This document shows, piece by piece, positions 35,766 to 57,754 of a stretch of DNA of 64,000 nt. The notes beneath the pieces are model-generated. The model was not told where the DNA came from and searched no databases. It saw nothing but the letters and a program-made list of their open reading frames with translations. The stretch is from Megaustenia siamemsis (Eukaryota > Mollusca > Gastropoda > Stylommatophora > Ariophantidae), in the NCBI GenBank assembly GCA_032433765.1, contig JAVIAB010000051.1, positions 77,802,244 to 77,866,243 of the forward strand. The letters are read 5' to 3'. Each line of letters opens with the position of its first letter. Positions within the stretch are counted from its first letter, which is position 1. The position numbers were made by a program, and so were the translations under genes.

Positions 35766-35814
<49 letters not shown>

Positions 35815-35912: not shown

Positions 35913-35943
<31 letters not shown>

Positions 35944-36050: not shown

Positions 36051-36081
<31 letters not shown>

Positions 36082-36242: not shown

Positions 36243-36273
<31 letters not shown>

Positions 36274-36849: not shown

Positions 36850-39800
36850 GTATGGGTTGAGAAGAAGGTGAAGGTCGGGGTGGATCATGAAGTAGATGTG
36901 TTGAGTACGTGGGGTACAGGGATAACGGTTGAGGTGAGTCCTGTAGTGAGGCTTGGGTTGATGGGCTTGGAGAGTGCTGGGAATTTGGTGTTGCTGGAAA
37001 TGAGGCGTCGTGGACTGGTGGTTGTGGTGTTGGGTGGGGAGACACGTACTGGGGTGGTGGTAGTGGTGTTGGGTGGGGAGACACGTACTGGGGTGGTGGT
37101 TGTGGTGTTGGGTGGGGAGACACGTACTGGGGTGGTGGTTGTGGTGTTGGGTGGGGAGACATGTACTGGGGTGGTGGTTGTGGTGTTGGGTGGGGAGACA
37201 CGTACTGGGGTGGTGGTTGTGGTGTTGGGTGGGGAGACATGTACTGGGGTGGTGGTTGTGGTGTTGGGTGGGGAGACATGTACTGGGGTAGTGGTTGTGG
37301 TGTTGGGTGGGGAGACACGTACTGGGGTGGTGGTTTAGGTGTTGGGTGAAGAGAGGCGTCGTGGGATGGTGGTTGTGATGTTGGGTGGGGAGACATGTAC
37401 TGGGGTGGTGGTTGAGGTGTTGAGAGAGGAGAGGCGTGCTGGGGTGGTGGTTGTGGTGGTGGTTGTGATGTTGCGTGGGGAGACACGTACTGAGGTGGTG
37501 GTTGTGGTGTTGGGTGGGGAAACACGTACTGGGGTAGTGGTTGTGGTGTTGGATGTGGAGAGATGTTCTGGGGTGGTGGTTGTTGTGTTGGGTGGGGAGA
37601 CACGTACTGGGGTAGTGGTTGTGGTGTTGAGTGGGGAGAGGCGTGCTGGGGTGGTGGTTGTGGTGGTGGTTGTGATGTTGCGTGGGGAGACACGTACTGG
37701 GGTGGTGGTTGAGGTGTTGAGTGGGGAGACACGTACTGGGGTGGTGGTTGAGGTGTTGAGTGGGGAGACACGTACTGGGGTGGTGGTTGAGGTGTTGGGT
37801 GGGGAGACACGTACTGGGGTGGTGGTTGAGGTGTTGAGTGGGGAGAGATGTTCTGGGGTGGTGGTTGTTGTGTTGGGTGGGGAGACACGTACTGGGGTGG
37901 TGGTTGAGGTGTTGAGTGGGGAGAGGCGTGCTGGGGTGGTGGTTGTGGTGGTGGTTGTGATGTTGCGTGGGGAGACACGTACTGAGGTGGTGGTTGTGGT
38001 ATTGGGTGGGGAAACACGTACTGGGGTAGTGGTTGTGGTGTTGGATGGGGAGAGATGTTCTGGTGTGGTGGTTGTTGTGTTGGGTGGGGAGATACGTACT
38101 GGTGTGGTGGTTGTGGTGTTGGATGAGGAGAGATGTACTGGGGTGGTGGTTGTGGTGTTGGGTGGGGACGCACGTCCTGAGGTAGTGGTTGTGGTGGTGC
38201 ATTTTGAGATGGTGATTGTGGTGATGCATATTGAGATGGTGGTTGTGGTGGTGCATATTGAGATGATGGTTGTGGTGATGCATATTGAGATGGTGGTTGT
38301 GGTGGTGCATATTGAGATGGTGGTTGTGGTGGTGCATATTGAGATGATGGTTGTGGTGATGCATATTGAGATGATGGTTGTGGTGATGCATATTGAGATG
38401 GTGGTTGTGGTGGTCCATATTGAGATGATGGTTGTGGTGATGCATATTGAGATGGTGGTTGTGGTGATGCATATTGAGATGGTGGTTGTGGTGGTGCATA
38501 TTGAGATGATGGTTGTGGTGATACATATTGAGATGGTGGTTGTGGTGGTCCATATTGAGATGATGGTTGTGGTGATGCATATTGAGATGATGGTTGTGGT
38601 GATGCATATTGAGATGATGGTTGTGGTAATGTATATTGTGATGGTGGTTGTAGTGGTGCATATTGAGATGATGGTTGTGGTGATGCATATTGAGATGGTG
38701 GTTGTGGTGATGCATATTGAGATGGTGGTTTTGGTGATGCATTTTGAGATGGTGGTTGTGGTGAGGCATATTGAGATGGTAGTTGGGGTGATGCATTTTG
38801 CGATGGTGATTGTGGTGGTGCATATTGAGATGGTGGTTGTGGTGGTGCATATTGAGATGGTGATTGTGGTGATGCACTTTGAGATGGTAGTTTTGGTTAT
38901 GCATATTGAGATGGTGATTGTGGTGATGCATTTTGAGATGGTGGTTGTGGTGGTGCATATTGAGATGGTGATTGTGGTGATGCATATTGAGATGGTGGTT
39001 GTGATGGTGCATATTGAGATGTTGGTTGTGGTGATGCATACTGAGATGGTGGTTGTGGTGGTGCATATTGAGACGGTGGTTGTGGTGATGCATATTTAGA
39101 TGGTAGTTGTAGTGGTGCATATTGAGATGGTGATTGTGGTGGTGCATATTGAGATGGTGGTTGTGGTGGTGCATATTGAGATGGTGGTTGTAGCGATGCA
39201 TATTCAGATGGTGATTGTGGTGTTGCATATTGAGATGGTGGTTGTGGTGGTGCATTTTGAGATAGTGGCTGTGGTGCTGCATTTAGGGATGATGGTTGTG
39301 GTGATGCATTTTGAGATGGTGGTTGTTGTGATGTATACTGGTATGTTGATGGTGACGATGCATAAAAGGATAATGATTGTGGTGATGCATTTTGAGATGA
39401 AGGTTGTAGTGATGCGTTCTGAGGTGGTAGATGTGGTGATGCATGCTGGGATGGTAATCGTGATAATGCATACTGAGATGGTGGTTGTGGTGTTGCAAAC
39501 TGTGATGGTGGTTGAGGTGTTGTAGACTGTGATGTTGGTTGAGGTGTTGCAGACTGTGACGGTGGTTGAAGTACAACGTACTGGGATGGTGGTTGAGGTG
39601 CTGATTGGAATGAGGAGTACTTGTAAGATGGTTGAGGTACTGGTTGTGGTGAATCGTAATGGGATGATGTTTGAGGCACTGGTTGGACTGAGTACTGGGA
39701 TGGTGGCTCTGGTGTTGGTTGTGAAGGGTGCAGTTGCTGTGACGTTGGCGTTTCAGGTGGCGTTTTTGCATGTTGAGGCGGTAGATTCTGAGACGATGGT

Positions 39801-39904
39801 GCTGGATAAGGTTCACTCAACGGAGGCATAGGAGGCAGCTCAAAGATAACTGCTGTAGGCAGTCTGTCCAATCAGAGGACAAGTAGGTAACTAATTACAT
39901 GCAT
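36850..39904 (-). pseudogene. Proline/glutamine-rich repeat secreted protein exon, broken by two stops
   Basis: Paralogue of the intact gene starting at 57729. On the minus strand, ATG at 39904 begins MHVISYLLVL, aligning with ISYLLIILYL of the intact copy, but then meets TGA at 39874-39872 inside the signal peptide. Reading on gives LDRLPTAVIFELPPMPPLSE, where LPPMPP is shared with the paralogue. Next come about 500 codons of a 9-residue repeat (PPSQYASPQ and variants), then from about 38.17 kb a 13-residue repeat (YVSPHPTPQPPPQ), then a Ser/Pro tail ending SSQPI. A TAA at 38899-38897 (TCA to TAA within a repeat) is the second stop; I read the frame as otherwise open. The exon is 3,055 nt, phase 1, and ends at a GTAAGT donor (36849). 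A possible acceptor lies upstream (TTTCCCTGAAG, about 39930). No downstream exon was found. It may be a pseudogene, a null allele or affected by base-call error. Confidence 0.72.
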
Positions 39905-40968
39905 ATATTACTATTTAGGTGTAGTTCCTTCAGGGAAAGAGGAAAGATGCAAACGCACACAGATTTTAAGCACAATAAAATATAAAAGTATCTGTTCATA
40001 TAGGAATATAATAGGAACGGTTTGTTGGTGACACGGACAGTTAGAAAGTTATTCACAGAATGTGTTGAAAAGTGTAGTTGAAAACAATGGAAAGTACCAT
40101 TACTTTTGGGAATGTGGTCTATGAAGTAGTAATTAAATTTGCATTAATGTGTGCATTATGTGTGTATTATATATGTATTATATATGTATTATATGTGTAT
40201 AATGTGTGTATTATATGTGTATAATATGAACTCATATCATATTATTTCTCTTGCGACTTTAACCCTGGTAGAAAAGTGTATATCTTGCAACAGTAATAAT
40301 TGTTATCATAGTTGAACAATATTCCTTCACATTTAGTTACATTCGTAAAGTAAATCAACTGCTACTTTCTTTCTTGTTGTGTATTGGCTTTCTGAACTCT
40401 ACCAACTATTTGTTCACTTCAGTGTCTCTTCATTCTTGTTTCCTGATGATTTCTCTGATCTCCATGCTAATTTCTTCCCTAACAGATGGCAATCTATAAT
40501 ACCAAACGTTATACAAGTGATCCTTATTCTCAAGAAGTAATTATGATTGGGGGGAGGGGTATAATTCACGCCATTTGAGTATTTTAAATTTTGTGCTAGT
40601 ACTAATATTTTACATTTTTCCATAACAATTGGCACACATATGTCATTGTTGTCAACACAACTTCAAGCCGTCCTATTTTCACCCATATGGTCTGGTAACC
40701 ATTTTCAAGGGCTGGGTAAATATTATGCAATTTTTTAAAATGTTAATTTTCTCTCCCTGATCTGTACACATTCCTGTTTTTGTTGTTGTTGTTGTTGTTG
40801 TTATTGTTGTTGTTATGGATCCAGCGACCTGTAAGCGGATGCCCTTCGACCCAATGCCGTGTAATAGTATCTGCAGGTTTTCATTAATTGCGTAGGTTTA
40901 TAACTAAATTAATTAATAGTACATTTTTAAAAAAATATTAATGGTAATATAGTAATCTGTGTTTCAAT
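39905..40968. other. Upstream flank of the broken gene, nothing recognised
   Basis: AT-rich, with a TGTATTATA-type simple repeat at 40140-40230 and a TTG trinucleotide run at about 40778-40816. No exon with good splice sites was recognised on either strand. The promoter and any 5' exon of the minus-strand gene could be here. Confidence 0.35.
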
Positions 40969-40969
40969 C

Positions 40970-41575
40970 TTAAATATATCTGGGCATTAATATAGACAGA
41001 GAGGGAGGAACAGAGAATGGTACCAAAATAAGGATATCAAAAGCAAGTGGAGCATTCGTTGCAACTAGAAAACACATGGAAATCCAAAGAAATTAGGTTA
41101 AAAATAAAAATCAAAATGTTCAGCTCCAATGTTAAGTCAGTCCTATTATATGGCTGTGAAACATGGAAAACAACAAAAATGACAATCATGAAGATACAAA
41201 CCCTAATTAATGGATGCTTGCACATAATAAAAGGATGGAAACAGTATGACAAAATCGCTAACATAGAATTATTGGAAAGGTACAGTCAAATACCAGTGGA
41301 TAAAGAGATACAGCGAAGACGATGGTCCTGGATAGGACACACACTGCAGAGGCCAACTGAGAGTATTACAAAACAGGCCCTTTTAGGAATCCTCAAGGAA
41401 AAAAGACAAAGAGGAAAACCAAAATATCCTTAGAGAAGATAGATGGAAGCATGGGTGAAGATGATGGGGAAGACACGGAATGATTTTAAATGAATGATAA
41501 ACAGTACGGGTTGGAAAATGTATGTTGAAGACCTATGCTCCACATGGCGCTGAATGGTAGAAGAAGAATGTGTCT
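40970..41575 (+). mobile_element. LINE family I C-terminal fragment, copy 1
   Basis: Reads KMFSSNVKSVLLYGCETWKT, HIIKGWKQYDKIANIELLER and KEIQRRRWSWIGHTLQRPTE, classic LINE ORF2 C-terminal motifs. It ends with CTGAATGGTAGAAGAAGAA. It is highly similar to 42926-43540, and both copies start at the same point (TTAATATAGACAGAGAGGG and TAACATAGACAAAGAGGG). Confidence 0.9.
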
Positions 41576-41579
41576 TTCT

Positions 41580-42140
41580 GCAAATTAATGGTGGCATTTT
41601 ATTTATTTTTGAAAGAATAATCAAGAATAAATGAAGCGCAATGTTACACAAAATATGTAGTAGAAAAGAGGTAACAAAAACACAAAAATTGCTTGTGAAT
41701 TTTCGGTAATTTATTTCATTCCTTGTAACTTCCATTCAAATGAGATCACGCCATTATTTTTTTTATTTTCAACTTGTATAGCCTGTTTTGTTTTTCGAGT
41801 CGTCTATGTCTTAATGTAAAAAAACTGGAAATTGGTAAGACCAAAATATTTTATAATTATCATATTTTGTTTTTTGTTACTACTTGTACCTGATACCTGC
41901 AGGCGCATGGGGTGTGTAATGGCTTATCCATGGGATAACAGGAGCATTTCTGTATGAGAAAGATAAATCGGTACTTTAGAGACATAGTAGTTTTAAAATA
42001 TCCAACTTTAAATAAAGACAATAGTCATACAATGGAAGTGATCAAAAATGAGTTAACCTCACCAATAAATGTGTTACACTCTAGTTGTATTATGAGACAG
42101 CGCTGACGGCCGTTCCTTCTGATATACCAATTATATTCAG
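41580..42140. other. No recognised feature
   Basis: AT-rich sequence between a LINE end and a SINE. No coding signal was seen. Confidence 0.4.
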
Positions 42141-42156
42141 CTTTACTGCAGCTTCG

Positions 42157-42517
42157 GGTGTCCGGTTAGCGCAATCGATAGGCGGTTGGCTTACCACGGC
42201 AACAGCCGGGGTTCGTACCCTGGCGAGGACACCTGGGTTTTACTAATTCCCTAAAAATTAGTGGGAGCCGCGATAGCTCAGTGGTTAGTGAACTGGACTA
42301 CTACGGACAAGGGGTAGGGTTCGATCCCAACCGACGGCTCCGGGTTCACCCAGCCTTAAATGGGTACCGGATTTTTTCTGGGAAAGTATAGCAGCACGGG
42401 CGTAATACCGACCACATTACCCCAAAAATCATGTGCTGAAGGTCTGTAAAATATAGGGTCACTAACACCATATTTCCCTATACGCCACTTGGCGTGACGG
42501 GGGTACTTTACTTTTTA
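42157..42517 (+). mobile_element. Composite SINE: family B head joined to family A
   Basis: Bases 42157-42262 are a tRNA-derived head: GGTGTCCGGTTAGCGCAATC, B box GGGGTTCGTACCC, then TACTAATTCCCTAAAAATTA. From 42263 a complete family A SINE follows: GGGAGCCGCGATAGCTCAGT, B box GGTTCGATCCC, and the family A body and tail. A 16-bp direct repeat CTTTACTGCAGCTTCG flanks the whole unit (42141-42156 and 42518-42533). This target-site duplication shows the two heads inserted as one transcript. Confidence 0.92.
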
Positions 42518-42606
42518 CTTTACTGCAGCTTCGCATCTGTATGCATTCATTTGCATTTCCTTGCCTTAACCCCTTACTATGACAACATATATAGCTTATC
42601 TTCATC

Positions 42607-42925
42607 GAAGGCCTCAGTTGCCTATTTGGGAAGACCGCTCGACTGGGCTACCGATGTTCGGACAACCCGTGTTTGATCCTCACTGGAAGCAGTGTGCATA
42701 TTACTCGTGGTTGGAAAAATATACCAACCGCGGTCGACCCAGACGATGGCAAAAATGGGTACCAGGATTCATATTCTGGGAAGGTGAGGAATGCCGCCTA
42801 GCATTGTGAGTTTCAATGCTTGAAAAGACACTATCCAGAAGTCTCAGAACACTTCTGGATAGGCGGTCGGGCACATATGGGTGATAACTCGTGCTAAGTC
42901 GTTGATTCAAGTCTCGTACTTGACC
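42607..42925 (+). mobile_element. SINE family C, copy 1
   Basis: AGGCCTCAGTTGCCTATTTG with B box GTGTTTGATCC, then GGTCGACCCAGACGATGGCA, AAAATGGGTACCAGGATTCA and a long 3' part ending in the CAAGTCTCGTACTTGACC tail. The better-preserved copy is at 47187-47516. Confidence 0.85.
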
Positions 42926-43540
42926 TTTATATTTGGGCAGTAACATAGACAAAGAGGGAGGAACAGAAAATGATACCAAAATAAGGACATCAAAAGCAAG
43001 AGGAGCTTTTGTTGCACTGGGAGACATATGGAAGTCCAAAGAAATTAGATTAAACACACAAATAAAAATGTTCAACTCCATTGTTAAGTCAGTCCTATTA
43101 TATGGCTGTGAAGCATGGAGAACAACAAAATTGACAATCATGAAGATACAGACTTTCATTAATAGATGCTTACGCAGAATAAAAGGATGTAAATGGCAGG
43201 ACAAAATCACTAACATAGAATTATGAAACTGTACCAATCAAATACCAGTGGATAAAGAGATACAGCGAAGACGATGGTGCTGGATAGGACACACATTGCG
43301 GAAGCCAACTGAGAGTATTACACAACAGGCCCTTTTTTTGGAATCCCCAGGGGAAATGACAAAGAGGAAGATCAAGAAATATTCTTGGAGAAGACAGTCA
43401 GAAGCAGAGATGAAGATGATGGGGAAGACATGGAATGATCTTAAAAGAATGGCAAGAAACAGAACGACTTGGAAAGTGTTTGTTGGAGACCTATGCTCCA
43501 GAGGGAGCTGAAAGGTAGAAGAAGAAGAAGACGTTATATT
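42926..43540 (+). mobile_element. LINE family I C-terminal fragment, copy 2
   Basis: Reads KMFNSIVKSVLLYGCEAWRT, RRIKGCKWQDKITNIEL and KEIQRRRWCWIGHTLRKPTE, ending RNRTTWKVFVGDLCSRGS and a GAAGAAGAAGAAG tail. A single frameshift near 43225 splits the reading frame. It is more complete than copy 1 at its 3' end. Confidence 0.9.
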
Positions 43541-43900
43541 TACCTGTATTTTCATCGTTCATCCTAAAAGGACAGTTAGTGGGTGTACATACAGTATGTT
43601 GTTGATTACAGCAAGCGGCGGTATTTTGCGCCCTTCGGCCCAACATGTCGGACTTCAGAAAGGCATTTGAATTAACATGTTTTAATCCTTCGACCCCCTC
43701 CTTCAAAGCTAGGATGGTTAGTCTGTGGCGTCACCAAAGTAACGGTTACATAGCACTGTTATGTGAGACATGTAGCCCTGCTCATCACATTACTCAACTG
43801 GTAAGCTCAAGGTGTTATGTGTTGCAGGGGCTCCTTTACTACGGCAAAGTGGAGAAGGATGAGTAAATGTGTATACTACCCTTATGGTGAGATTTTAAAC
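43541..43900. other. No recognised gene
   Basis: Contains the short dispersed phrase GCCCTTCGGCCCAACATGTC (43629-43649), also seen in altered form near 49322 and 61752. No coding domain recognised. Confidence 0.35.
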
Positions 43901-43904
43901 TAAA

Positions 43905-44055
43905 AATATCTCTTTATAGTAACATATCAAACATATCTTTCTAGTCAAACATCTCTTTATAGTCAAATATCTCTTTAGTCAACATCTCTTTATAGTCAAA
44001 CATGTCTCTATAGTCAAAATTCTCTTTATAGTCAAACATCTCTTTATAGCTATAT
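43905..44055. repeat. About 21-bp tandem repeat (CTCTTTATAGTCAAACAT)
   Basis: Around seven imperfect copies of CATCTCTTTATAGTCAAA with length differences between copies. Confidence 0.9.
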
Positions 44056-44661
44056 ATCTACTGGATTGTGATGCTGCATGTCACATTTGTTCGGACATGG
44101 GAGAATCCGTTAGTACTAACGCCATTCAAGATTAGCTCTAAGTTAAGTAGATTTCTTTTACCACATAGTGAAGTTTTGTTTCATTAAATTTTACAGGCAG
44201 AGCTTTTTTACTCTGACAAAAGTTTACCTGAATTCTATCATCGCCATTCCATTGAACTAGAAGATAGTAAAGTACCAGGTCGTTGAAGCACTGGAATACT
44301 TAGATTTCTCGAATGCATATTTAGAAAGTTATGCTATACTCTATTATGAAATAATGTTACATATATCAAATGCAAATAAAAAAACAGGTAATAAGAGAGC
44401 TCTGGCGTTATTATAATTTAAGTTCTGAAATTTTACTGGAACGCGTACTGGACTGTTCCGGCTATAAAAAAGCCTGCTTATAAGTTGCATTTCTGCACAC
44501 GATTTACTATTTAATCCGCAGGCACACAGTGCGATGGAGACAGAACCAGAAATATAATGCACAGAACATGTCTAGGCTGGAAACAACATTCTCTAAAGAT
44601 AGCAAAATGGATAAATAAATAAGTATACGATGTAACAGGACAAACCAAATATTGAGACAGA
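44056..44661. other. No recognised feature
   Basis: Unique-looking sequence. A 72-codon minus-strand frame (44562-44344) contains several cysteines, but no acceptable splice context or family was seen. Confidence 0.3.
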
Positions 44662-44674
44662 TATACCCTATACT

Positions 44675-44961
44675 AATAACCTTTACATATCAGTACAATT
44701 ACAGGTTGGGAGCCGCGATAGCTCAGTGGTTAGTGAACTGGACTACAAAGGACAAGAGGTAGGGTTCGATCTCAAACGACGGCTCCGGTTCACCCAGCCT
44801 TAAATGGGTACCGGATTTTTTTCTTTGGAAAGTAAAGCGGCACGGGCGTAATACCGACCACATTACCCCAAAAATCATGTGCCGAAGGTCTGTAAAATTT
44901 ATGGTCACTAACACCATATTCCCTATACGCCACTTGGCGTGACGGGAGTACTTTACTTTAC
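44675..44961 (+). mobile_element. SINE family A with 34-nt 5' extension
   Basis: Family A begins at 44708 (GGGAGCCGCGATAGCTCAGT). The 13-bp target-site duplication TATACCCTATACT lies at 44662-44674 and 44962-44974, so the inserted unit also includes 34 bp before the tRNA head (AATAACCTTTACATATCAGT and onward). The same extra sequence directly flanks the minus-strand family A copy at 51.7 kb. Confidence 0.88.
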
Positions 44962-45019
44962 TATACCCTATACTCAGACGAGGCAGTGCCTATCACCACA
45001 AAGCTACATCTATACAAAA

Positions 45020-46120: not shown

Positions 46121-46123
46121 TGT

Positions 46124-46382: not shown

Positions 46383-46394
46383 AAAACGGTCATC

Positions 46395-47171: not shown

Positions 47172-47186
47172 TATTAAATTGTACAG

Positions 47187-47516: not shown

Positions 47517-47789
47517 TATTAAATTGTACAGTACAGCATTTGCAGTAGAGGAGATCAGTCCTTTTTCCGGTTTTATTTATCTCCACAGTACAGAGCCAGG
47601 TACAATTTGTTTTCCTCAACTGGATCTATTTGAGAGAGACAAGTTCCGATCGAATCCATGTACTTTGTTGTCAGACCTTTCCAATAAATAAACACTGCAT
47701 ACGCTCCCATCCTTCTCGTACCCAGCCTGACTCCCGATTCTTGAAGTCTCGTAACTACATCCTCATGATTCAATATGTCACACTATATT

Positions 47790-48905
47790 TGAACGCATAT
47801 ATCACATATATTTTGACGCATGTAGCACATATACTTGGACGCATGTAGCACATATATTTGGACGCATATATCACATATATTTTGACGCATGTAGCACATA
47901 TATTTCGACGCATGTAGCACATATATTTGGACGCATGTATCATATATTTGGACGCATGTAGCACATATATTTGGACGCATGAAACACATATACTTGGACG
48001 CATGTAGCACATATATTTTGACGCATATATCACATATTTTGACGCATATATCACATATATTTTGACCCATGTAGCGCATATATTTGGACGCATATATCAC
48101 ATATATTTTGACCCATGTAGCACATATATTTGGACGCATGTAGTACATATATTTGGACACATGTAGCACATGTATTTGGACGCATGTAGCACATATATTT
48201 GGACGCATGTAGCACATACATTTGGACGCATGTAGCACATATTTGGACGCATGTAACACATATATTTTGACACATGTAGCACATATATTTTGACGCATAT
48301 ATCACATATATTTTGACCCATGTAGCACATATATTTTGACGCATGTAGCACATATATTTTGACCCATGTAGCACATATATTTTGACGCATATATCACATA
48401 TATTTTGACCCATGTAGCACATATATTTTGACACATGTAGCACATATATTTTGACGCATATATCACATATATTTTGACCCATGTAGCACATATATTTTGA
48501 CGCATATATCACATATATTTTGACACATGTAGCACATATATTTTGACCCATGTAGCACATATATTTGGACCCATGTAGCACATATATTTTGACCCATGTA
48601 GCACATATATTTGGACGCATGTAGCACATATATTTGGACACATGTAGCACATGTATTTGGACGCATGTAGCACATATATTTGGACGCATGTAGCACATAC
48701 ATTTGGACGCATGTAGCACATATTTGGACGCATGTAGCACATGTATTTGGACGCATGTAGCACATATATTTGGACGCATGTAGCACATACATTTGGACGC
48801 ATGTAGCACATATTTGGACCCATGTATCACATATATTTTGACCCATGTATCACATATATTTGGACCCATGTAGCGCATATATTTAGACCCATGTAGCGCA
48901 TGTAT
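47790..48905. repeat. 23-bp minisatellite, about 49 copies
   Basis: The unit is GACGCATGTAGCACATATAT plus TTG, with variants TATATC for TGTAGC and ACACATG or ACCCATG. Because 23 is not a multiple of 3, all minus-strand frames stay open over long stretches and spell Cys/Met/Tyr-rich repeats; these are not genes. It lies in the intron after the exon at 49709-49826, or beyond that gene's end. Confidence 0.97.
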
Positions 48906-49554
48906 TTCAAATGTTGCTTCACTGAAAGTTGTAGTGACACTGCAGCTGCGTCAAGATAAAACGTTAGTTTGAAAGAGCGTACACCATCATGGCCACATCT
49001 GAATGCATTAGACAAGAAGCTATAATCAAATATGTCAAATGAACCATATATAGGGAATATACAAATCTAGTTACAAATTATATTGGCTTCAAATATAACC
49101 AACAAAGAAAGGGAACAAATTCCTGGAAATACTAAGTGTGACAAGAAACGTGAAGATCTTCATTCAAAAGAGAGTGGCTGGGTGAAGTTTAAAATATATT
49201 GTTTTAGCAAACATAACAGATTAAATTAGATGTCTTAATTGATTTGTCTATCTCTTCTTGACGTACATTTGGACGTGGATTGTGGTGTCACTATTTTACG
49301 ACAAGCAACGATATCTACGCCTTTGGGCCCGACACATCCGTCTTCAGCATGAGTAGATTGCTAATGTAATTATTTTTACCCAGGCAGTGGACATTTTTTG
49401 TCTACTCTTTACGACTTTTAATTACTAAAGTGGGCTTTTTACCGTTCTCAGAATACAGACGGGGCGTTCTTTTTTTCGCCGTTATTCAAGAGATCTTAGC
49501 ATCGAATCTCAATAGCCAGAGAAGAGCGATGAAGTTAAGGTCACGATGAAGTCA
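48906..49554. other. No recognised gene
   Basis: Lies within the presumed intron or 3' flank of the minus-strand gene. CCTTTGGGCCCGACACATCC near 49321 resembles dispersed phrases at 43629 and 61752. Confidence 0.35.
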
Positions 49555-49630
49555 TAGATTCAATGAGAAGAACTCACACTGTCTGTGGCGAGATTCGAAC
49601 TGATGACCTTAGCTGTAGAACACTCAATTC
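49555..49630 (-). mobile_element. Possible tRNA-derived SINE head
   Basis: The minus strand reads CTAAGGTCATCAGTTCGAAT followed by CTCGCCACAGACAG, a B-box-like GGTTCGAATC context. It is too short and isolated to define a family. Confidence 0.35.
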
Positions 49631-49708
49631 CCCATCTTAATTTATATCGAAATACTTTGCAATAAAACACATGCACACACACAACAAGCTCGACCACATG
49701 AAACTTAC

Positions 49709-49826
49709 GGATCGTAGTCGCACTGACATACTAGTGGGTTGTATATCAGTGTGAATGGACACTCAATTTCGTACTTATTGCTGGTTATAAATCTTCTAGG
49801 GTTACTGCTAGGCATCAGGTCACACG
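49709..49826 (-). CDS. Proline-rich secreted gene, exon with CBM14-like chitin-binding half-domain
   Basis: Acceptor CTTCTTTTCTGTAG before 49826, donor CC|GTAAGT after 49709, 118 nt. Only one frame is open, and it is the one set by the phase-1 upstream exons. It reads CDLMPSSNPRRFITSNKYEI then ECPFTLIYNPLVCQCDYDP. The pattern CPxxLxxNPxxxxCD is the C-terminal half of peritrophin-A/CBM14 chitin-binding domains. Two cysteines usual in the first half are replaced (Pro and Ser at NPRRFITS), so binding could be altered. It follows the microexon at 49960-49989. The exon ends in phase 2 and the next exon was not identified, so the C-terminus is unknown. Attachment to chitin or a cuticle/shell-type matrix is inferred from family knowledge only. 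Confidence 0.72.
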
Positions 49827-49959
49827 CTACAGAAAAGAAGTAATATTTGTAACAAGTACATTATTTGTTTAACTCTTTTAGTTTTAGTGTGGAATATTAT
49901 GCTCGTTTGGTAGAATTATCTAACACGAAATTATAAACTACATAGGATTTTTCACTTAC

Positions 49960-49989
49960 AACTTGGCATTTCTTTAATGGGTTTTACCA
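49960..49989 (-). CDS. Proline-rich secreted gene, 30-nt microexon
   Basis: Strong polypyrimidine acceptor TTGCTCTTCTTTTCGTTTAG ending at 49990, and donor AGTT|GTAAGTG after 49960. The exon is 30 nt, phase 1 at both ends. Joined to the C left by the large upstream exon it encodes LVKPIKEMPS, and the trailing T completes TCG with the next exon. Skipping it would keep the frame, so it could be an alternative cassette. Its position 134 nt upstream of the CBM14-like exon and the matching phases support it being real. Confidence 0.65.
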
Positions 49990-50044
49990 CTAAACGAAAA
50001 GAAGAGCAATGAAAACATTTAAAGTATTTAAACATTAAAAAGAA

Positions 50045-50228
50045 CTGGCTAATAAACACCATTTTACAGAGGCAATTAAGATATTATGGCCACATCAAAA
50101 GATACAGCGGGATGGAAAGAACAATAATGGAAGGCATGGTTTCTGGGCAACGCATCAGGGGCAGATCAAGGATATGGTGGTTACAAGACATCAAGGAGAC
50201 CTTGACCATGACAACAGAAGAAGGTGGA
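50045..50228 (+). mobile_element. LINE C-terminal fragment
   Basis: Reads QLRYYGHIKRYSGMERTIME then GQRIRGRSRIWWLQDIKETL, a LINE ORF2 C-terminus. It continues into DLARDRDSFRRAVVNETFYG, whose coding sequence has been amplified into the following tandem repeat. It lies upstream of the minus-strand microexon, in the same large intron. Confidence 0.8.
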
Positions 50229-50765
50229 AGATCTGGCTAGAGACAGAGATTCTTTCAGACGGGCTGTGGTGAATGAAACCTTCTATGGGAGATCTGGCTA
50301 GAGACAGAGATTCTTTCAGACGGGCTGTGGTGAATGAAACCTTCTATGGAAGATCTGGCTAGAGACAGAGATTCTTTCAGACGGGCTGTGGTGAATGAAA
50401 CCTTCTATGGGAGATCTGGCTTGAGATAGAGATTCTTTCAGACGGACTGTGGTGAATGAAACCTTCTATGGGAGATCTGGCTTGAGATAGAGATTCTTTC
50501 AGACGGACTGTGGTGAATTAAACCTGCTATGGGATATCTGGCTTGAGATAGAGATCCTTTCAGACGGGCTGTGGTGAATTAAACCTTCTATGGGAGATAT
50601 GACTTGAGAAAGAGATTATTTCAGACGGCCTGTCGTGAATTAAACCTTCTATGGGAGATCTGGCTAGAGAAAGAGATTCTTTCAGACGGGCTGTGGTGAA
50701 TGAAACCTTCTATGGGAAATCTGGCTAGAGACAGAGACTCTTTCAAACGGGCTGTGGTGAATTCA
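50229..50765. repeat. 61-bp tandem repeat derived from a LINE coding end
   Basis: Nearly nine copies of a 61-bp unit starting ATCTGGCTAGAGACAGAGAT and containing TTTCAGACGGGCTGTGGTGA. ATCTGG recurs at 50231, 50292 and 50353, and so on at a period of 61. The first unit is continuous with the LINE frame at 50045-50228. Since 61 is not a multiple of 3, later copies are out of frame. Confidence 0.95.
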
Positions 50766-51446
50766 TGACTCTGCAAATGACATGCGACCTGATGATGACC
50801 ACTAAACACTAGCTTCTCTAGAATATGCCAACACAGGTTTGTACATTTTGTATAAAAATACTATACATTAAAAGTCACGAACAACAACAGTATTGTGTAG
50901 ACACCCTCACCCAGATGATTGAGATCAGCAGAGGGGCACTTCAGACAAGCTGCGCTGTTCAGTGTCGTAACGATTAAGCGCCATCCACACACACACACAC
51001 AAACACATACATTTTCTTTTCTTTTCATTAACCTCACTGCAGGCCTACTCAATTATCACTAAAACTAAAAATATTCAACTACAAATTGTTGATGTCAAAA
51101 ACTGAAACCACTGTCGTAAAATGCCGATTTTAAGAAAGATGGAATGTCGTAGATTCGGAACAAGCTAACACATAAATACTCCTATTTTTCTAGGTTTACA
51201 ACTAAAATACCCCTTTGAAGTTGTTTTTGTTTCATAACACTGTCTTTGTATCTATAAAAAAGTCCTAAAGGAACTGAATTGCCCGTGGATATCATTGTTT
51301 CCATGGTATCACTTCTCAATGTGGGGTCCTTGTACTACCCCGTCACAGGCGTAGGAACCGAAACATTTCGAAGATTGCGAATATATTGAATGATGGCGGG
51401 AAAATAGCACATGCAAGACAACTGTTATGAGTAATTAACATGTATG
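50766..51446. other. Intronic, no recognised feature
   Basis: Inside the intron of the minus-strand proline-rich gene (between exons at 49989 and 56991). A short CA run occurs at 50988-51000. Confidence 0.4.
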
Positions 51447-51477
51447 TAACCTGTAATTGTAAAATATTAAAATAAGT

Positions 51478-51725
51478 AAAGTGCCCCCGTCACGCCAAGT
51501 GGCGTATAGGGAATATGGTGTTAATGACCATAAATTTTACAGACCTTCGGCACATGATTTTTAAGGTAATGTGGTCGGTATTACGCCCGTGCCGCTTTAC
51601 TTTCCCAGAAAAAAATCCGGTACCCTATCTAAGGCTGGGTGAATAAAAAACCGTCGGTTGGGATCGAACCCTACCTCTTGTCCTTTGTAGTCCAGTTCAC
51701 TAACCACTGAGCTATCGCGGCTCCC
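51478..51725 (-). mobile_element. SINE family A, inverted copy
   Basis: The minus strand begins GGGAGCCGCGATAGCTCAGT at 51725, with B box GGTTCGATCCC, body CATTACC(TT)AAAAATCATG and tail GGGGGCACTTTAC. Imperfect 14-bp duplications flank it: TACAATTACAGGTT on the far side (51448-51461) and TATAGTTACAGGTT next to the head (51726-51739). Confidence 0.9.
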
Positions 51726-51739
51726 AACCTGTAACTATA

Positions 51740-53312
51740 CTGATATGTAAAGGTTATTTAAATGTAAAGGGTTAAGGCATAAAAATGCGAAGCTGCAGTA
51801 AATCTGAATATATTTTATAAAAAATATGGAGTGAAATCTATATAAAGATATGGAGTGAATTTTGTGTCCTTTGTCACTCTGGCGACCGCAGCCGCTATAC
51901 TTTGGAAAATCGCCTTATAGTCCAGTATGGTTCGCTGACCCCGAGAGGTATGAATGTATCACACTCATACGCATAGTTTCCTTTTGGTTGCTCCTTCCCT
52001 TTTGCATAGCCTTCTTTACTACACATATTTGGGTTCTTTGGTCTACTTACTATGCCATGCTTTTTATAGTTCTTCTCCTCTAGTCCCTTATGAGACACTT
52101 CGGTTTTCTCCTCTATACCTTTTTTTTCTGTGCTCCTTACCCCTCATTTATTTTTATTGTACCCCACTCTCAGACATCTCACTCTTACCGTCTTTTTACA
52201 CCTTTTAGTCTACTAATCGATCCTTTCTCCTTTGTGTTTGCACACTGACCCCTGTGTGAACTCCTATGGTTATGTGTACATTTACGCACTTTTTTGCACG
52301 TTTCTCGACGTTCACGACAGCCGCACTTGGTTACGATTTCATTTGGGATTTGACAGGATAGTTTTCTATTTTGCTTTCTTTAACACATTTCGATTGCTTT
52401 TGTTTTGGTTGTTTCGTTATTAGTTTTGTGTGTGTGTGTGTGTTTATTTGTTCCTGATGAAGGCCTATTGAGCCGAAACGTTGTTTAGTCTGTGTCGTCC
52501 ACTTGTCACGTAAAGCTTCTTACATACCATTTTTTTATTTTTTTTATTTTTCTTTATTTAAATGTAATTATTTCACATATTTACTTGAATTCATTGAATC
52601 TTTTAAGTTTTTTCGTGTTTATTTAGAATCTGTTATCTTAATATTCATTTACTTTTCAGCGTCCTTTTTGTGTTGCTTTGTTCTATAAGCAGTTATCAAA
52701 TATAAATCTGAAATCAAAGTAATTCTATAAATTACAAACACTTTGAAGGGTGAAATTATGCAAATGAGATATCATGAAAATTGTTAATGAATAAGTAACC
52801 ATTGATCTATTTGAAATCATAGAATTCAGTTATGATTCTATGAAAATAAATCCCACGATCCACTGCAGGAAGAATACGAGTGGAGTAGGAGGTTTTAAAA
52901 AACAGCGTGACTTTTGTAGCAGGATCTGTTCCCATGTAGTTCGAGCGTATTTGACGCCATTGCAGGTGACGTAGGTTGATGTTAGAAACACGAGTGTACA
53001 TGTTGCGATGACACACGCGCTGCTTCACATGTTTGTATCATCGTTTATCGATGAATTGTTCTAGATCTCATTACTTCGCTGCTTTTAAAAAGACGGATAT
53101 GATGAACGGATCTCTTTTTTTTTTTTTTTTGCTGGTTTAAATTGGAAGTGCATCTGTACCCTGCTACTGCGACGGCGTGTTCCTTGTCTCTTTTGTGCTC
53201 CCACCTGGCTACATATACTGCCGTAGGCTTTGGCAAACAATGTTGTGTAACTACAGACACTGATACCCCTAGTGCTCCATTTTAATGTTTCTAATAAATT
53301 CGCTCCTCTCTC

Positions 53313-53343
<31 letters not shown>

Positions 53344-53375
53344 GTGTGTGAGAGAGAGAGTGTGTGTATATCTGT
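51740..53375. other. Intronic, T-rich, no recognised gene
   Basis: Contains T-rich stretches (52130-52690) where open frames are compositional. A segment near 52455-52490 (CTGATGAAGGCCTATTGAGC, then CGAAACGTTG) resembles phrases common in animal repeat ends. CT/GT microsatellites lie at 53307-53368. No exon was recognised. Confidence 0.4.
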
Positions 53376-53420
53376 TACTTTACTTTACTTTACTTTACTT
53401 TACTTTACTTTACTTTACTT
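53370..53420. repeat. (CTTTA)n microsatellite
   Basis: Nine CTTTA units. Families A and C both end in CTTTAC tails, so this may be an expanded SINE tail whose body has decayed. Confidence 0.9.
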
Positions 53421-54057
53421 GAGGACTTCCCGTTTGAAGATGGTGTAATAGAGTCTGTATTTCATCGATCGCTGCAGAATTTGCGTTTGGAGACTGATTA
53501 TTTTCAGCTCTCTGTTGCACATAGCTGAAATATTAAAGTCAACTGGATGTTCCACTGATTGGATTGGCGCTGGTGCAACGAAGTCCCGTACGACTGACCA
53601 GTTCCTTTTGGCAAATCTGGCGGTGTAAATACGACCTTTTCCCATCGTTAAGTCAATATGCGTTTTAAGTCATAACATTGAAAACTGTTCAATAACCATC
53701 GCTGGATTTGTTCGACGCCAATTACTTTAAGCTCCTTTAAACAGATTTTTGTACCAATTCAACTGAAAGTTTCACTTTAAGGATTCTGCGCCGTCGCTAC
53801 GGTGTTCGTGTGAAATGTCATCGTTCTACAGAGTAAATCAAACGTTATGCATGCTCTATTGTTATGATGGAAAATGGTATATCCCTAACTGTACCCTCGA
53901 AACGAAGGGCGAGATGATAAAGATTTCGATGAAGCTCGTAAATCTGCAGGCCTGGTGTGACTTCTCGAATCTACGTATTAGTCAAGAGGGATCTTGCCTA
54001 CATTCTAGAGAGCTATGATGAGATCAGTGGTAGATTTGTGAAACAATTTATCGTCTC
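53421..54057. other. No recognised gene
   Basis: A 67-codon plus-strand frame (53815-54018) holds several cysteines (LCMLYCYDGKWYIPNC) but has no splice or domain support. This is intronic for the minus-strand gene. Confidence 0.3.
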
Positions 54058-54070
54058 ACACTGAGAGATT

Positions 54071-54337
54071 GGGAGATAGGAGCCGCAATAGCTCGGTGGT
54101 TAGTGAACTGGACTGCAAAGGACCAGAGGTAGGGTTTGATCCCAACTGACGGCTTCCGGGTTCATCAAGCCTTAAATGGGTACCGGATATTTTGGGGAAA
54201 GTAAAACGGCACGGGCGTAATACCGACCACGTTACCCCAAAAATCTTGTGCTGAAGGTCTGTAAAATGTATGGTCACTAACACCATATTCCCTATACGCC
54301 ACTTGGTGGAACGGGGCTCTCTACTTTTTTTTTACTT
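54071..54337 (+). mobile_element. SINE family A with target-site duplication
   Basis: AGGAGCCGCAATAGCTCGGT with B box GGTTTGATCCC and the family A body, ending in a T-rich tail. A 13-bp duplication ACACTGAGAGATT / ACACTGCGAGATT lies at 54058-54070 and 54338-54350. Mutations in the A and B boxes suggest an old copy. Confidence 0.88.
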
Positions 54338-54350
54338 ACACTGCGAGATT

Positions 54351-54814
54351 TGCTGCGAAGAAAATCTGAGCACTTATGGACATTTGTCAGATGAATGATG
54401 AGGATAATTCGATGAATAACTAAGTCTTTTATTGGACAAATTTTCAAATTCAGTTTGTGAGGGAACGCAGTTATTGTCCACTATTTAAACATTTTCTGTG
54501 ACCACAGTATTGATATAAATGAAGACATGCTGCAAGACAACTGAATTTATTTAATCATTGGATCTTCAATATTTTTCGAAGGCATTGCATTAAATTTGCA
54601 AGCTCTTTATCCTTTTCGCGTGTTCTGAATAGATCTCCATGTTTCAAATCTATGAAGAAGTGTCTTAAGCACTTCGGTTGCATATAAGGATTGTTGTCGT
54701 TGGCGCCAAGTTCATATTAATCTATTCCTTTAGTGTTCATTTATCAGGAGCTGCAGCTGCCTTGTCAATGTATATTTACCTCATCGGTTAATGTAGTAAC
54801 TGTAGATCTGATGT
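54351..54814. other. Intronic, no recognised feature
   Basis: AT-rich unique-looking DNA within the large intron of the minus-strand gene. Confidence 0.4.
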
Positions 54815-55560
54815 AACTCATCATCATCATTGAGTGCCGTCTCCGCATCGAAGGTTGGCTACCATGGAGCGTCATTCCACTCTGTCTCTTGCTTTGATGG
54901 TGCAGATTGTCATAGTCTGATTTGTCTATCTTTTAATTTTACTAGTTCTTGTTGGTCTTGGTCTACCTCTGCCTCTTTTACCTTGTATTTTTCCTTCCAA
55001 TATTACTTTTAGTAGGATGTTGTGTCTTTTGGGCTACCCCAAAAGTTTCATTTGTTTTGTTCTAATTGTGTTTAGTAGTTCTCTTTTAATTTTTAGTTGT
55101 TATAAAACTTCATCATTAGTTTTCTTTTCTTTCCATTCAATTCTACCTATTCTTCTATAAATTCACGTTTCAAAAGCTTCAATTTTCTCTTCTGTTTTCT
55201 TGTCTAACGGCCACGTTTCTGCACCATACAGGAATATTGAGAAGAAATTTTGCTATTCTTAGTTTTAGTCCTGGTGTTATTTGTTTTGATGTTAGTATAC
55301 TTTTCATGGCATTAAAATTATATTTTGCCATACCTATTCTTTTGTTTATTTCAGTTTTACATTTTCCATCACTGGTTATAGTATGTCCCAGGTATTTGTA
55401 GTTCTGAACTGTCTCCAGGTCTATTCCTTCAACTTTGATATTTATTTGTAGGTCTTTAGAATTGTCTTTCCTTATGGTCATAGTTTTAGTCTTTTTGATA
55501 TTCATATCTAATCCATATTTTTTGCTTGTCATGTTTATTTCATTAAATAATTGTTGTAGA
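54815..55560 (-). mobile_element. LINE family H 3' part, copy 2
   Basis: From 55532 the minus strand reads MTSKKYGLDMNIKKTKTMTI, VQNYKYLGHTITSDGKCKTE and KYNFNAMKSILTSKQITPGL, the region after the reverse-transcriptase core. The frame then breaks, and the C-terminal and 3' UTR sequence match 32365-32945 and 63260-63780. The element ends at a CATCATCATC run (sense GATGATGATG). Confidence 0.88.
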
Positions 55561-55589
55561 TATTTAGGATTTTCTGCTAGTAATACAGT

Positions 55590-56636
55590 ATCTTATACAG
55601 TAAATCAGTATACAAGCAAAACCGAAGTAATGGCAATAGCGAGAAAGAAAGAAAAACTAAACATCATAATAGATAATACGACTTTGAAGCAAGTAGACAA
55701 TTTTAAATATCTGGGTAGCAAGTTAACACAAGACAATAACCAAGAGACAGAGATAGATATAAGGTGTAATAAAGCATGCCAAGTTATAGGCCAAGTATCA
55801 ACACTATTGAAAAACAAAGCAATAACTACGGAAGCAAAAAGGGCAATATACAAATAAATTTTTCTACCTACTCTGTGCTATCAGTGCCAGAATTGGACGC
55901 TGGACTCTAGAACAATAAGAAAGATAACGACCACCGAAATGAAATGTGTCAGAAGAATCACAGGAAACAGCTTAAGGGACAGAGTAAGAAACACTGACCT
56001 GAGGAAGAAACTCGAAATTGAACCAGCCATCGAATACATAAAGAAACAACAGATAAATTGTTTCGGCCACATAACAAGACCTTACCACGGCAACAGCCGG
56101 GGTTCGTAATCCTGGCGAGGACACCTGGGTTTTACTAATTCCCTAAAAATTAGTAGGAGCCGCGATAGCTCAGTGGTTAGTGAACTGGACTACTACGGAC
56201 AAGGGGTAGGGTTCGATCCCAACCGACGGCTCCGGGTTCACCCAGCCTTAAATGGGTACCGGATTTTTTCTGGGAAAGTAAAAGCAGCACGGGCGTAATA
56301 CCGACCACATTACCCCAAAAATCATGTGCTGAAGGTCTGTAAAATATAGGGTCACTAACACCATATTTCCCTATACGCCACTTGGCGTGACGGGGGGTAC
56401 TTTACTTTTTTTTTTACATAACAAGACAAAAAGAACTAACAATGACTCAAAGAGCCTTAAGTAAACGCTACGAAAACGCCAGATTAAGAGGAAGACCGAG
56501 AAAGAGATGGATAAAGGGATTACTAGAGTCACTAGGAGGGATAACATCAGAAGAGGCCAACAGAATAGCAAAGAATCGCAGATTGTTTCTCCCCTCGACG
56601 CCAACGGCAGCAGAGGAAGGATAGAAGAAGAAGAAG
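55590..56636 (+). mobile_element. LINE 3' part, interrupted by a SINE
   Basis: Reads YTSKTEVMAIARKKEKLNII, DNFKYLGSKLTQDNNQETEI and ATTEMKCVRRITGNSLRDRV-like motifs with a stop near 55855. It runs to 56080 and resumes at 56428: QRALSKRYENARLRGRPRKR, RIAKNRRLFLPSTPTAAEEG, and an AGAAGAAGAAGAAAG tail. The gap is the composite SINE at 56081-56415. It lies tail-away from the minus-strand LINE at 54815-55560. Confidence 0.88.
56081..56415 (+). mobile_element. Composite SINE B+A, 5'-truncated, nested in a LINE
   Basis: Begins inside the family B head (CTTACCACGGCAACAGCCGG), continues GGTTCGTAATCC, TACTAATTCCCTAAAAATTA, and from 56155 a complete family A copy with a T-rich tail. The join between B and A is the same as at 42262. 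A 12-bp duplication ACATAACAAGAC (56069-56080 and 56416-56427) marks insertion into the LINE. Confidence 0.93.
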
Positions 56637-56984
56637 AAAGAAGAATACAGTATCATCAGTCTATCATAGGTTATTGATTATCTTTTCATTAATGTTTAAG
56701 CCTGGCATCTCAGTAATGTTTTTACAGATTTGCTCAGTGTGTCGATTGAAACAAGCTGATGTAACTAAACCTTTATATTTATTGAAGTAGGTCTATTCTG
56801 AAAACTATGGTAGTTTGATTCGCCTTTTTACTTGTGGTAGAATTAAATTTTTTTCTGGATTGTTTTGTCAGAGGATGTAGGAAATATGATATGTCGATTA
56901 TATTTATCAGTGATTGCAAAATAACGTTTTGAGAAAATGTGTCCAGAGCAAAGAGAACATGTCTTTTTTTTTAAGGGAAAACAT
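56637..56984. other. Intronic, no recognised feature
   Basis: AT-rich DNA immediately downstream of the large exon's donor on the minus strand. Confidence 0.4.
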
Positions 56985-56990
56985 ACTTAC

Positions 56991-57729
56991 GCTTAGGAGT
57001 AGGTGATGGTGGTGGGTACTGTGGTATCGGTTGTGGCGTTGGTTGGGGCATTGGTGGTGGGTACTGTGGTATCGGATGGGGCGTTGGTTGAGGCATGGGT
57101 GGTGGGTACTGTGGTATCGGTTGTGGCGTTGGTTGGGGCATTGGTGGTGGGTACTGTGATATCGGATGGGGCGTTGGTTGGGACATTGGTGGTGGCGTTG
57201 GTGGTGGGTGCTGGGGCATGGGTGGTGGGTACTGCGGTGTTGGTAAAGGGGGTTGAGGCATTGATGGGGGGTTTTGTGGCTCTGGTTGGGGCATTGGTAG
57301 ATGTATTGGTGGTGGGTGCTGGGGCATGGGTGGTGGGTACTGTGGTGTTGGTGGTGGCTGTGGTTGAGGCATTGGTGGTGGGTACTGAGGCATTGGTGGT
57401 GGATAATGAGGTGTTGGTGTAGGGGGTTGAGGCAATGATGGTGGGTTTTGTGGCTCTGGTTGGGGCATCGGTGGAGGTATTGATGGTGGGTGCTGGGGCA
57501 TGGGTGGTGGGTACTGAGGCATTGGTGGTAGATAATGAGGTGTTGGTGAAGGGGGTTGCGGCATTGACATAAGTGGGTACTCGGGTATATGTGGTGGGGG
57601 CTGATTTGATGGTGGTGAATAAGCTACGGGTATCGGGGGCATAGGAGGTAGACTGTAGATATCTCCAAAGGACAGTCTGCCCAAGTAGAGGATGATAAGG
57701 AGGTAACTTATTGGATGTGCACCCATCAT
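56991..57729 (-). CDS. Secreted proline-rich repeat protein, large first coding exon
   Basis: ATG at 57729 (a second ATG follows at once). Residues 1-25 form a signal peptide (MMGAHPISYLLIILYLGRLS), so the product is probably secreted. The mature start has the motif LPPMPPIP. About 190 residues follow of Pro/Gln/Met-rich repeats such as QYPPPMPQPTPQPIP and MPQHPP, with almost no charged residues. The exon gives 246 codons plus 1 nt and ends AAG C|GTAAGT, phase 1. The phase fits the microexon at 49960-49989 and the CBM14-like exon at 49709-49826, both on this strand about 7 kb downstream. Plausible role: an extracellular chitin-associated matrix or lining protein; this is inference. The paralogue at 36850-39904 shares signal peptide, LPPMPP and donor. 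Other frames over the repeats are also open, but only this one has a signal peptide and consistent splicing. Confidence 0.78.
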
Positions 57730-57754
57730 TGATTTGGAGCTGAAAAAGAGAGCA
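57730..57754 (-). promoter_or_regulatory. Splice acceptor and 5' UTR start of the proline-rich gene
   Basis: The minus strand reads CTGCTCTCTTTTTCAG, then CTCCAAATCA and the ATG. The exon therefore begins at 57739 with 10 nt of 5' UTR, implying at least one upstream non-coding exon that was not found. Confidence 0.65.

Follow-up and report, generated by a model that had tools for sequence, protein, structure and literature searches.

Two proline-rich exons on the minus strand of the 64,000-nucleotide stretch analysed here, hereafter the window, raise the question of whether they open a pair of genes for secreted proteins that end in a chitin-binding module, as a sequence-only reading had proposed. 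The explanation that we consider reasonably probable is that one of them, gene A, is an intact gene for a secreted proline-rich tether with a CBM14-derived, putatively chitin-binding end, while the other, gene B, is a recently disabled tandem paralogue. The features on which this explanation is built are collected in Table 1.

Table 1. Features of genes A and B (positions in the window, except for those on C51, which lie outside it)
Feature	Position	Strand	Basis
Gene A first exon: start codon, signal-peptide-like leader, Pro-rich repeats	56991..57739	-	Frame, acceptor rank, repeat codon test
Gene A 45-bp repeat array, unit QYPPPMPQPTPQPIP	57007..57195	-	Tandem Repeats Finder
Gene A candidate microexon, 30 nt, phase 1-1, frame-optional	49960..49989	-	Acceptor and GTAAGT donor
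Gene A cysteine exon, entered in phase 1 and left in phase 2, resembling the C-terminal half of CBM14	49709..49826	-	Paralogue, dN/dS, CBM_14 match
Gene A terminal exon, NAPVIPWISHYTPHAPAGIRYK and stop	41880..41949	-	Matches stretch 3′ of paralogous cysteine exon
Gene B exon: leader, long Pro-rich repeats, donor gtaagt at 36850 in phase 1, two in-frame stops	36850..39927	-	Leader homology with A, acceptor
Gene B 27-bp repeat array (QYASPQPPS)	38178..39568	-	Tandem Repeats Finder
Gene B 39-bp repeat array, unit QYVSPHPTPQPPP	37016..38196	-	Tandem Repeats Finder
Gene B in-frame TGA, in leader	39872..39874	-	Frame reading
Gene B in-frame TAA, in repeats	38897..38899	-	Frame reading
Gene B putative cysteine exon	C51:77724598-77724481	Same as B Pro-rich exon	
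Gene B putative terminal exon	C51:77721981-77721909		

Gene A forms a single open frame

Gene A looks like the intact copy of the pair. Its ATG lies at 57729, behind a strong acceptor (first exon base 57739) that ranks 20th among the 2514 minus-strand AG sites, and its proline-rich exon ends at 56991 with a gtaagt donor in phase 1. The full chain of exons gives one 957-nt frame of 318 aa, which holds the leader, the proline-rich strap and the CBM14-like half-module together; judged by eye, the leader reads as a putative signal peptide. It had been proposed that a microexon and a CBM14-like exon continue the frame in the right phase. Indeed, the donors and exons at 56991, 49989-49960, 49826 and 36850 are all compatible in phase, but the candidate microexon (acceptor rank 37/2514) turned out to be optional, the frame staying open over 308 aa when it is skipped, and a further terminal exon had been missed. 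A search for a counterpart of the microexon in gene B found none. The alternative in which the cysteine exon ends the gene (CCG TAA) was abandoned when the terminal exon was located, this TAA being misleading because a phase-2 exon end with a GTAAGT donor reads TAA every time. The match of the terminal exon to its paralogue fits in acceptor and phase in both copies (control, 1/24).

GTAAGT is rare, with 16 occurrences on the minus strand of the 64 kb, and four of the 16 are exon ends of genes A and B. Furthermore, the window was scanned for open exons of 20-300 nt that are entered in phase 1, end in GTAAGT and have an acceptor at least as strong as that of the cysteine exon. This returned four exons on the minus strand, three of which lie within the A/B locus, versus none on the plus strand.

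Cysteine and terminal exons have one conserved paralogue

The search for paralogues beyond the window, which had been suggested as a check, was rewarded: in the animal's own genome, of 2.59 Gb, the cysteine exon has one close relative. It is 90% identical and lies on the same strand, 114 kb beyond the proline-rich exon of gene B, with its own matching terminal exon. The two cysteine exons differ at 22 of 117 nt, 15 of these at third positions (p=9e-4), and dN/dS is about 0.04; they are therefore coding and conserved. Their terminal exons are both entered in phase 2 and each contain a stop, with differences of 8/5/15 by codon position and AATAAA signals 112 and 131 nt past the stops. In the order of the strand, each of the two proline-rich exons is followed by one cysteine exon and one terminal exon, and no further proline-rich frame (at least 60 aa, with more than 28% Pro) was found in the 244 kb scanned. 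If the proline-rich exon of gene B is spliced to these distant 3′ exons, gene B would be a tandem paralogue of A spanning about 120 kb, with a longer proline-rich strap.

Two further candidates were dropped, namely a third copy on C87 (E=3.2) and a weak tblastn match at 31969-31853 with an internal stop, and the patterns used revealed no second CBM14-like exon within the window. The idea that the pair is possibly lineage-specific gains a little from the fact that a search with the cysteine end, covering database proteins of about 163-518 aa, yielded no candidate, and that its own genome has two clear copies.

Gene B combines a probably open history with two in-frame stops

As the sequence-only reading had it, the leaders of A and B are alignable, with 70% identity in 105 bp of DNA (E=6e-8) and 51% in 53 aa of protein, and its coordinates for the phase-1 GTAAGT donors were correct. 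The leader differences are distributed 9/9/11 by codon position, without an excess at third positions. The assertion that the repeats differ completely did not survive, since the 45-bp unit of A and the 39-bp unit of B have a common core; when the codons of B's unit were shuffled, 61 of 3000 shuffles aligned equally well. Codon tests of the repeats were made on DNA-level pairs; a choice of units by peptide pattern forces pN near 0 by construction. Third positions account for 17 of the 33 independent differing sites in gene A (p=0.023), and the test of gene B's repeats revealed neither protein-level nor third-position conservation.

The ATG of gene B lies at 39904, and its acceptor (first base 39927) is stronger than that of A, ranking third among the 2514 minus-strand AG sites. 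Of the proposed pair of genes, A looks intact, but the proline-rich exon of B holds TGA and TAA in frame, and B therefore looks recently disabled by premature stops. These are the only two stops in 1018 codons, though 345 codons are one step from a stop. Within the 27-bp array, TCA stands in 22 of the 122 entries of CCA columns, while TAA stands in none of the 85 entries of CAA columns (p=4e-6), and judging from these columns the array appears to have been under selection against stops. Gene B would have been kept open for most of the time and have gained its two premature stops recently.

The cysteine end is weakly related to CBM_14

When the product of the cysteine exon was compared with Pfam by itself, the check that had been recommended, zero matches were obtained. 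Together with the terminal exon, CBM_14 was the only family listed, with 14.1 bits (E=0.053) for A and 16.6 bits (E=0.0088) for B. The description of the end as CBM14-like was thus supported, but both scores lie under the curated cut-off (22.1 bits) and the match spans positions 26-49 of the 53 in the profile, which is the C-terminal half only. An hhalign comparison with CBM14 gave a probability of 50% (E=1.6e-4, columns 26-47 of 52). True CBM14 segments, each left out in turn, scored 25-68 bits versus 13 for A, and in a control with Markov windows 1 of 30 equalled the score of A. In a CBM14 scan of the window, the cysteine exon of A was the best piece with 10.4 bits, the next reaching 6.1. 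Ordinary CBM_14 exons are many in the same genome (80 matches at E<=0.001). The profile comparisons point to a weak relationship of the cysteine end to CBM_14, confined to the C-terminal half.

The pair has in common with the CBM14 or peritrophin-A module (PF01607; human chitotriosidase ChBD, tachycitin) the pattern CP..L.(F/Y)NP....CD(W/Y), the C4-C5 spacing of 13 and an aromatic residue two after C5. In the 40-residue exon peptide, Cys 23 and Cys 36 are 13 apart and followed by D-Y, invariant in both copies. This agrees with human chitotriosidase as described in PMC4844120, where the C4-C5 disulfide is Cys450-Cys463 (spacing 13) and the aromatic at C5+2 is Trp465. In contrast to CBM14, the pair has one extra cysteine, and the cysteines of the first conserved disulfide (Cys420-Cys440 in chitotriosidase) are not recognisable in the cysteine end; the CP motif is preceded by a single cysteine, at a distance of 21 residues, versus 30 and 10 in chitotriosidase. 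A single-sequence fold model of the 40 residues showed four short strands and was weak (pLDDT 68.5, pTM 0.33). CBM14 was absent among the PDB matches of this model. In a list of PDB matches below threshold, a kinesin stood level with the chitinases.

A putative chitin-binding tether and its alternatives

In the gene A product, a signal peptide would be followed by a strap of repeats rich in Pro, Gln, Met and Tyr, about 220 residues long; after this would come an end with four cysteines, some 40 residues in length, and finally a 22-residue tail. The four-cysteine end would have arisen from a CBM14 (peritrophin-A) module, of which it represents the C-terminal half. The strap may act as a tether, extended, disordered or in polyproline-II form, and serve as a spacer or link in the extracellular matrix, and the C-terminal hairpin, with the C4-C5 disulfide and the Tyr after C5, would anchor it to chitin or to a comparable polymer of GlcNAc. 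From the sequence, chitin binding by a secreted proline-rich tether is the likely prediction.

It is very unlikely that the exons do not belong to one gene, such that chance-open proline-rich repeats happen to lie near an unrelated cysteine-rich gene. Repeats rich in CCA have long open stretches in each of the three frames, and being open is therefore no proof by itself; against this idea, however, speak the leader homology, the third-position bias in the repeats of A, the rare donors with matching phases, and the succession of one cysteine and one terminal exon after each of the only two proline-rich frames in the 244 kb. A more serious alternative, though on balance unlikely, is that the gene pair is real while its end is another small disulfide domain, which resembles CBM14 only in CPxxLxxNPxxxxCD and would, instead of binding chitin, perhaps serve a matrix or secreted protein for cross-linking or for binding to proteins. 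The sub-threshold score over half a profile, the gap between 13 bits and those of true segments, and a fold search that returned nothing related are in its favour, whereas the sole Pfam family listed for both copies, the published spacing and aromatic residue, and the lead of A's exon over every other piece of the window favour a CBM14 origin.

Gene B could also be functional, its stops being assembly errors, alleles of the individual, or removed or recoded in RNA. Its cysteine and terminal exons are intact, its cysteine end is nearer to CBM14 than that of A, and its array was apparently selected against stops, which are two against 345 near misses. Yet the stops are two separate ones, one within the leader, and the repeats lack third-position conservation, so that we regard a functional gene B as unlikely, too. 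Quite improbable, on the sequence, is a combination of both novelties: a new minimal chitin-binding end, in which a CBM14 module was cut to its C-terminal hairpin, with an extra cysteine replacing the lost disulfide partner, and fused to fast-turning proline-rich straps selected for openness and composition rather than exact sequence, while gene B is still used despite its stops (alleles, assembly errors, RNA changes) and the genome keeps both a short and a very long tether.

Several known proteins come close to the proposed tether. Amelogenin, a matrix protein of vertebrate enamel, has a P/Q/M/H make-up apparently similar to that of the pair; the resemblance is one of composition only, and amelogenin has no chitin-binding end. 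It is described as secreted and intrinsically disordered, with proline-rich repeats that expand and contract (PMC3060920). A strap combined with chitin-binding domains is a design already published for shell-matrix proteins. According to the descriptions in PMC3374290 and PMC4094399, Lotgi1|231869 of the limpet Lottia gigantea has ten peritrophin-A domains and proline-rich extensin-like motifs, and Lotgi1|239574 (LUSP-20) a Thr-rich stretch ahead of its chitin-binding domain. By this described design, the likeness to the pair is a low-complexity strap with CBM14 in a matrix protein; the limpet proteins differ in that their CBM14 domains are complete, 231869 carrying several, and in the Thr-rich strap of 239574. 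The methionine-rich insoluble shell proteins of Pinctada fucata, as described in PMC7591529, share Met- and Pro-containing repetitive regions with the pair, but have acidic regions and functions that vary by protein.

Should the half-module bind chitin, the pair would reveal how small a part of CBM14 suffices, and standard profiles would overlook such matrix proteins, because the pair scores under the Pfam cut-off. The pair would also represent natural short and long versions of one tether, the first intact and the second seemingly a recent loss, and could be useful for studying the turnover of disordered matrix proteins under selection for composition and openness.

Other frames in the window

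A protein search with the neighbouring Cys-rich frame at 32991-33551 gave 16 candidates, none at E<=0.01. The reverse-transcriptase frame at 27607-28530 matched 263 proteins at E<=1e-20, and the few organisms named among the best 120 of the 263, coral, amphioxus, oyster and rotifer, point to an animal and to nothing narrower. A SINE word from the window occurred in 0 viral contigs and 0 genome contigs, and no related literature was found.

Two proline-rich genes with a common leader

The sequence-only reading had described a pair of proline-rich secreted genes on the minus strand, here the intact-looking gene A and its tandem paralogue gene B. The alignable leader that it ascribed to both was recovered at 70% over 105 bp (E = 6e-8), as was the phase-1 GTAAGT donor ending both proline-rich exons, of which motif the minus strand of the 64 kb has 16. 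The A leader starts from an ATG at 57729 (-) and reads MMGAHPISYLLIILYLGRLSFGDIYSLPPMPP..., while that of B starts from an ATG at 39904 (-) and reads MHVISYLLVL[stop]LDRLPTAVIFELPPMPP... Since strong acceptors precede both proline-rich exons (ranks 20 for A and 3 for B among 2514 minus-strand AG sites), a 5′ UTR exon probably lies upstream of each. The A exon encodes 46% Pro, 11% Gln, 7% Met and 6% Tyr, and the B exon 33% Pro, 17% Gln and 16% Ser. We took the coding frame of A to be the one with the leader common to B; another open frame on this exon (57729-56991, -) is Thr-rich and mucin-like.

Table. Positions of exons and other features (window positions unless a contig is named)
Feature	Position	Strand	Remark
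A proline-rich exon	57739-56991	-	
A microexon	49989-49960	-	candidate
A cysteine exon	49826-49709	-	
A terminal exon	41949-41880	-	
B proline-rich exon	39927-36850	-	
Paralogous cysteine exon	C51:77724480-77724596	-	outside window
Cys-rich open frame	32988-33554	+	188 aa, stop-terminated; between B proline-rich exon and distant 3′ exons
TTAAGT-like tandem array	10287-26685		16 kb, about a quarter of window
23-bp satellite array	47779-48907		~49 copies; A last intron
61-bp tandem array	50225-50762		8.8 copies, 93% matches; A first intron, just upstream of microexon
TGATGATGG array	35604-36367		764 bp; just downstream of B donor
LINE-type reverse-transcriptase fragment	27607-28530	+	RVT_1/DUF6451 group
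LINE-type reverse-transcriptase fragment	55179-55592	-	RVT_1/DUF6451 group
LINE-type reverse-transcriptase fragment	41032-41433	+	RVT_1/DUF6451 group
LINE-type reverse-transcriptase fragment	42924-43226	+	RVT_1/DUF6451 group

A second cysteine exon and the 3′ ends

The 40-residue cysteine peptide of A was searched against the 2.59-Gb assembly of 155 contigs, in which the window occupies C51:77802244-77866243. Three places were found, namely A itself, a weak match on C87 (E = 3.2) and a paralogue, 90% identical (E = 1e-18), beyond the window, where the sequence-only reading had proposed to look for further copies. This paralogue lies on the same strand as the B proline-rich exon and 114 kb beyond it, and we infer from this location that it is part of B. 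The 244-kb scan showed neither another proline-rich frame (≥60 aa, >28% Pro) nor a comparable leader match. Of 117 aligned bases, 22 are changed between the A cysteine exon and this paralogue, and 15 of the changes fall on third codon positions (p = 9e-4), with a dN/dS of ~0.04 at a dS of ~1.9 that is near saturation; GTAAGT is kept after both exons. If spliced, the B intron (window 36850 to C51:77724598) would measure 114 kb, versus 7.0 kb for the corresponding intron of A.

The microexon and cysteine exon of A indeed fit in phase and carry GTAAGT donors, their acceptors ranking 37 and 94 of 2514. The microexon remains a candidate, because the frame survives without it and a search for a B counterpart found none. 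The cysteine exon exits in phase 2, where GTAAGT always reads TAA, so that a stop and a donor are indistinguishable from the window alone. When repeat-masked stretches 3′ of both cysteine exons were compared by tblastx, the top plus/plus match covered 23 residues (E = 0.021). Controls comprised 24 comparisons, made with 12 further 10-kb stretches in each orientation; because one of them did as well, with an E of 0.006, the similarity by itself is weak evidence for a terminal exon. The match begins exactly at an acceptor AG in both copies, in the sole fitting phase, and stops at a stop codon in both; the copies differ at 8/5/15 sites by codon position. With this exon A forms a single frame of 957 nt (318 aa), and AATAAA follows the stop by 112 nt in A and 131 nt in B.

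A probable divergent CBM14 half-module

The cysteine exon alone retrieved no Pfam family. With the terminal exon added, CBM_14 (PF01607, the peritrophin-A chitin-binding module) was the sole family listed (E = 0.053 for A, 0.0088 for B), matching profile positions 26-49 of 53 under the 22.1-bit cut-off. Profile-profile comparison with CBM_14 gave a probability of 50% (E = 1.6e-4) over the same C-terminal half. With our own profile of seven PDB-derived segments, A scored 13.0 bits, versus 24.8-67.7 bits for true segments left out in turn; within the window no piece outscored the A exon (11.7 bits, runner-up 5.6), and its equal occurred in 1 of 30 Markov windows. In the 244-kb scan the B copy came top at 17.1 bits, and two near-identical repeat-like frames (12.4 and 12.2) stood above A (11.7). 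With an earlier profile, which also contained one made-up consensus, 2047 pieces were compared; the A piece obtained 10.4 bits and the runner-up 6.1, with best controls of 6.7 in reversed DNA and 5.0 in reversed pieces. Full shuffling equalled the score of the A piece once in 5000 trials (4854 scored), and shuffling that left Cys and Pro in place did so in 10 of 5000 (4967 scored).

Sub-threshold PDB matches of the cysteine end include chitinases with CBM14, and a kinesin scores equally well. The fold model of the 40-residue peptide is all strand and weak, and no CBM14 was among its PDB matches. The A and B ends agree with chitotriosidase (PMC4844120) in the distance between the last two cysteines and in the aromatic residue that comes next; the first disulfide of chitotriosidase is absent from both. 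A chitotriosidase construct lacking this aromatic, a Trp, and the adjacent residue lost chitin binding. Of the proposed CBM14-like assignment, the resemblance of the C-terminal half stood, while the sub-cut-off score and the missing first disulfide speak against it. The cysteine end is a divergent CBM14 half-module, not a proven member. At least 80 matches to ordinary CBM_14 exons (E ≤ 0.001) occur in the genome, so chitin-binding proteins are common in M. siamemsis. At C116:36291698-36309601, ordinary CBM14 exons are clustered in tandem, with six equal-scoring CBM_14 matches ~3.5-3.6 kb apart.

Tests for selection on the straps, and their possible role

Openness of the proline-rich repeats proves little, because such repeats read open in every frame. 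The A repeat pairs were detected at the DNA level, leaving peptide information unused. Their shift was divisible by three in 19/19 segments, and differences at first, second and third codon positions numbered 44, 62 and 134 when overlapping segments were counted; among independent sites, 17 of 33 differences were third-position (p = 0.023). No third-position excess appeared in the 27-bp (30/127 deviations) or 39-bp (35/105) array of B, or in the A-B leader differences (9/9/11). In the 27-bp array, TCA occurred in 22 of 122 CCA-column cases versus TAA in 0 of 85 CAA-column cases (p = 4e-6, a rough figure, as repeat copies are not independent), and its single TAA is located in a TCA column. We read the B strap as one whose residues were free to change and from which stops were removed until TGA (39874) and TAA (38899) arose recently.

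The Pro/Gln/Tyr/Met-rich strap would be extended and might be cross-linked, and the predicted chitin-binding hairpin at its end would anchor it to a chitin scaffold. Such a design is already known, since limpet shell proteins combine peritrophin-A domains with stretches rich in Pro or Thr (PMC3374290, PMC4094399). The novelty lies in the reduction of the module, in the repeats themselves and in the pairing of an intact-looking gene with an apparently disabled one; searches of open-licence papers turned up no account of the A/B pair.

Other features of the locus

The Cys-rich open frame matched no Pfam family above cut-off (best DUF4590, E = 0.82), had no homologue at E ≤ 0.01 among 16 candidates, and gave a structure model without confidence (pLDDT 32). 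The TGATGATGG array reads as an Asp/Gly run in one frame and a His run in another, and no signs of coding were suggested. The 23-bp satellite passes through all frames because of its unit length. Some of the LINE-type fragments are housed in the introns of A.
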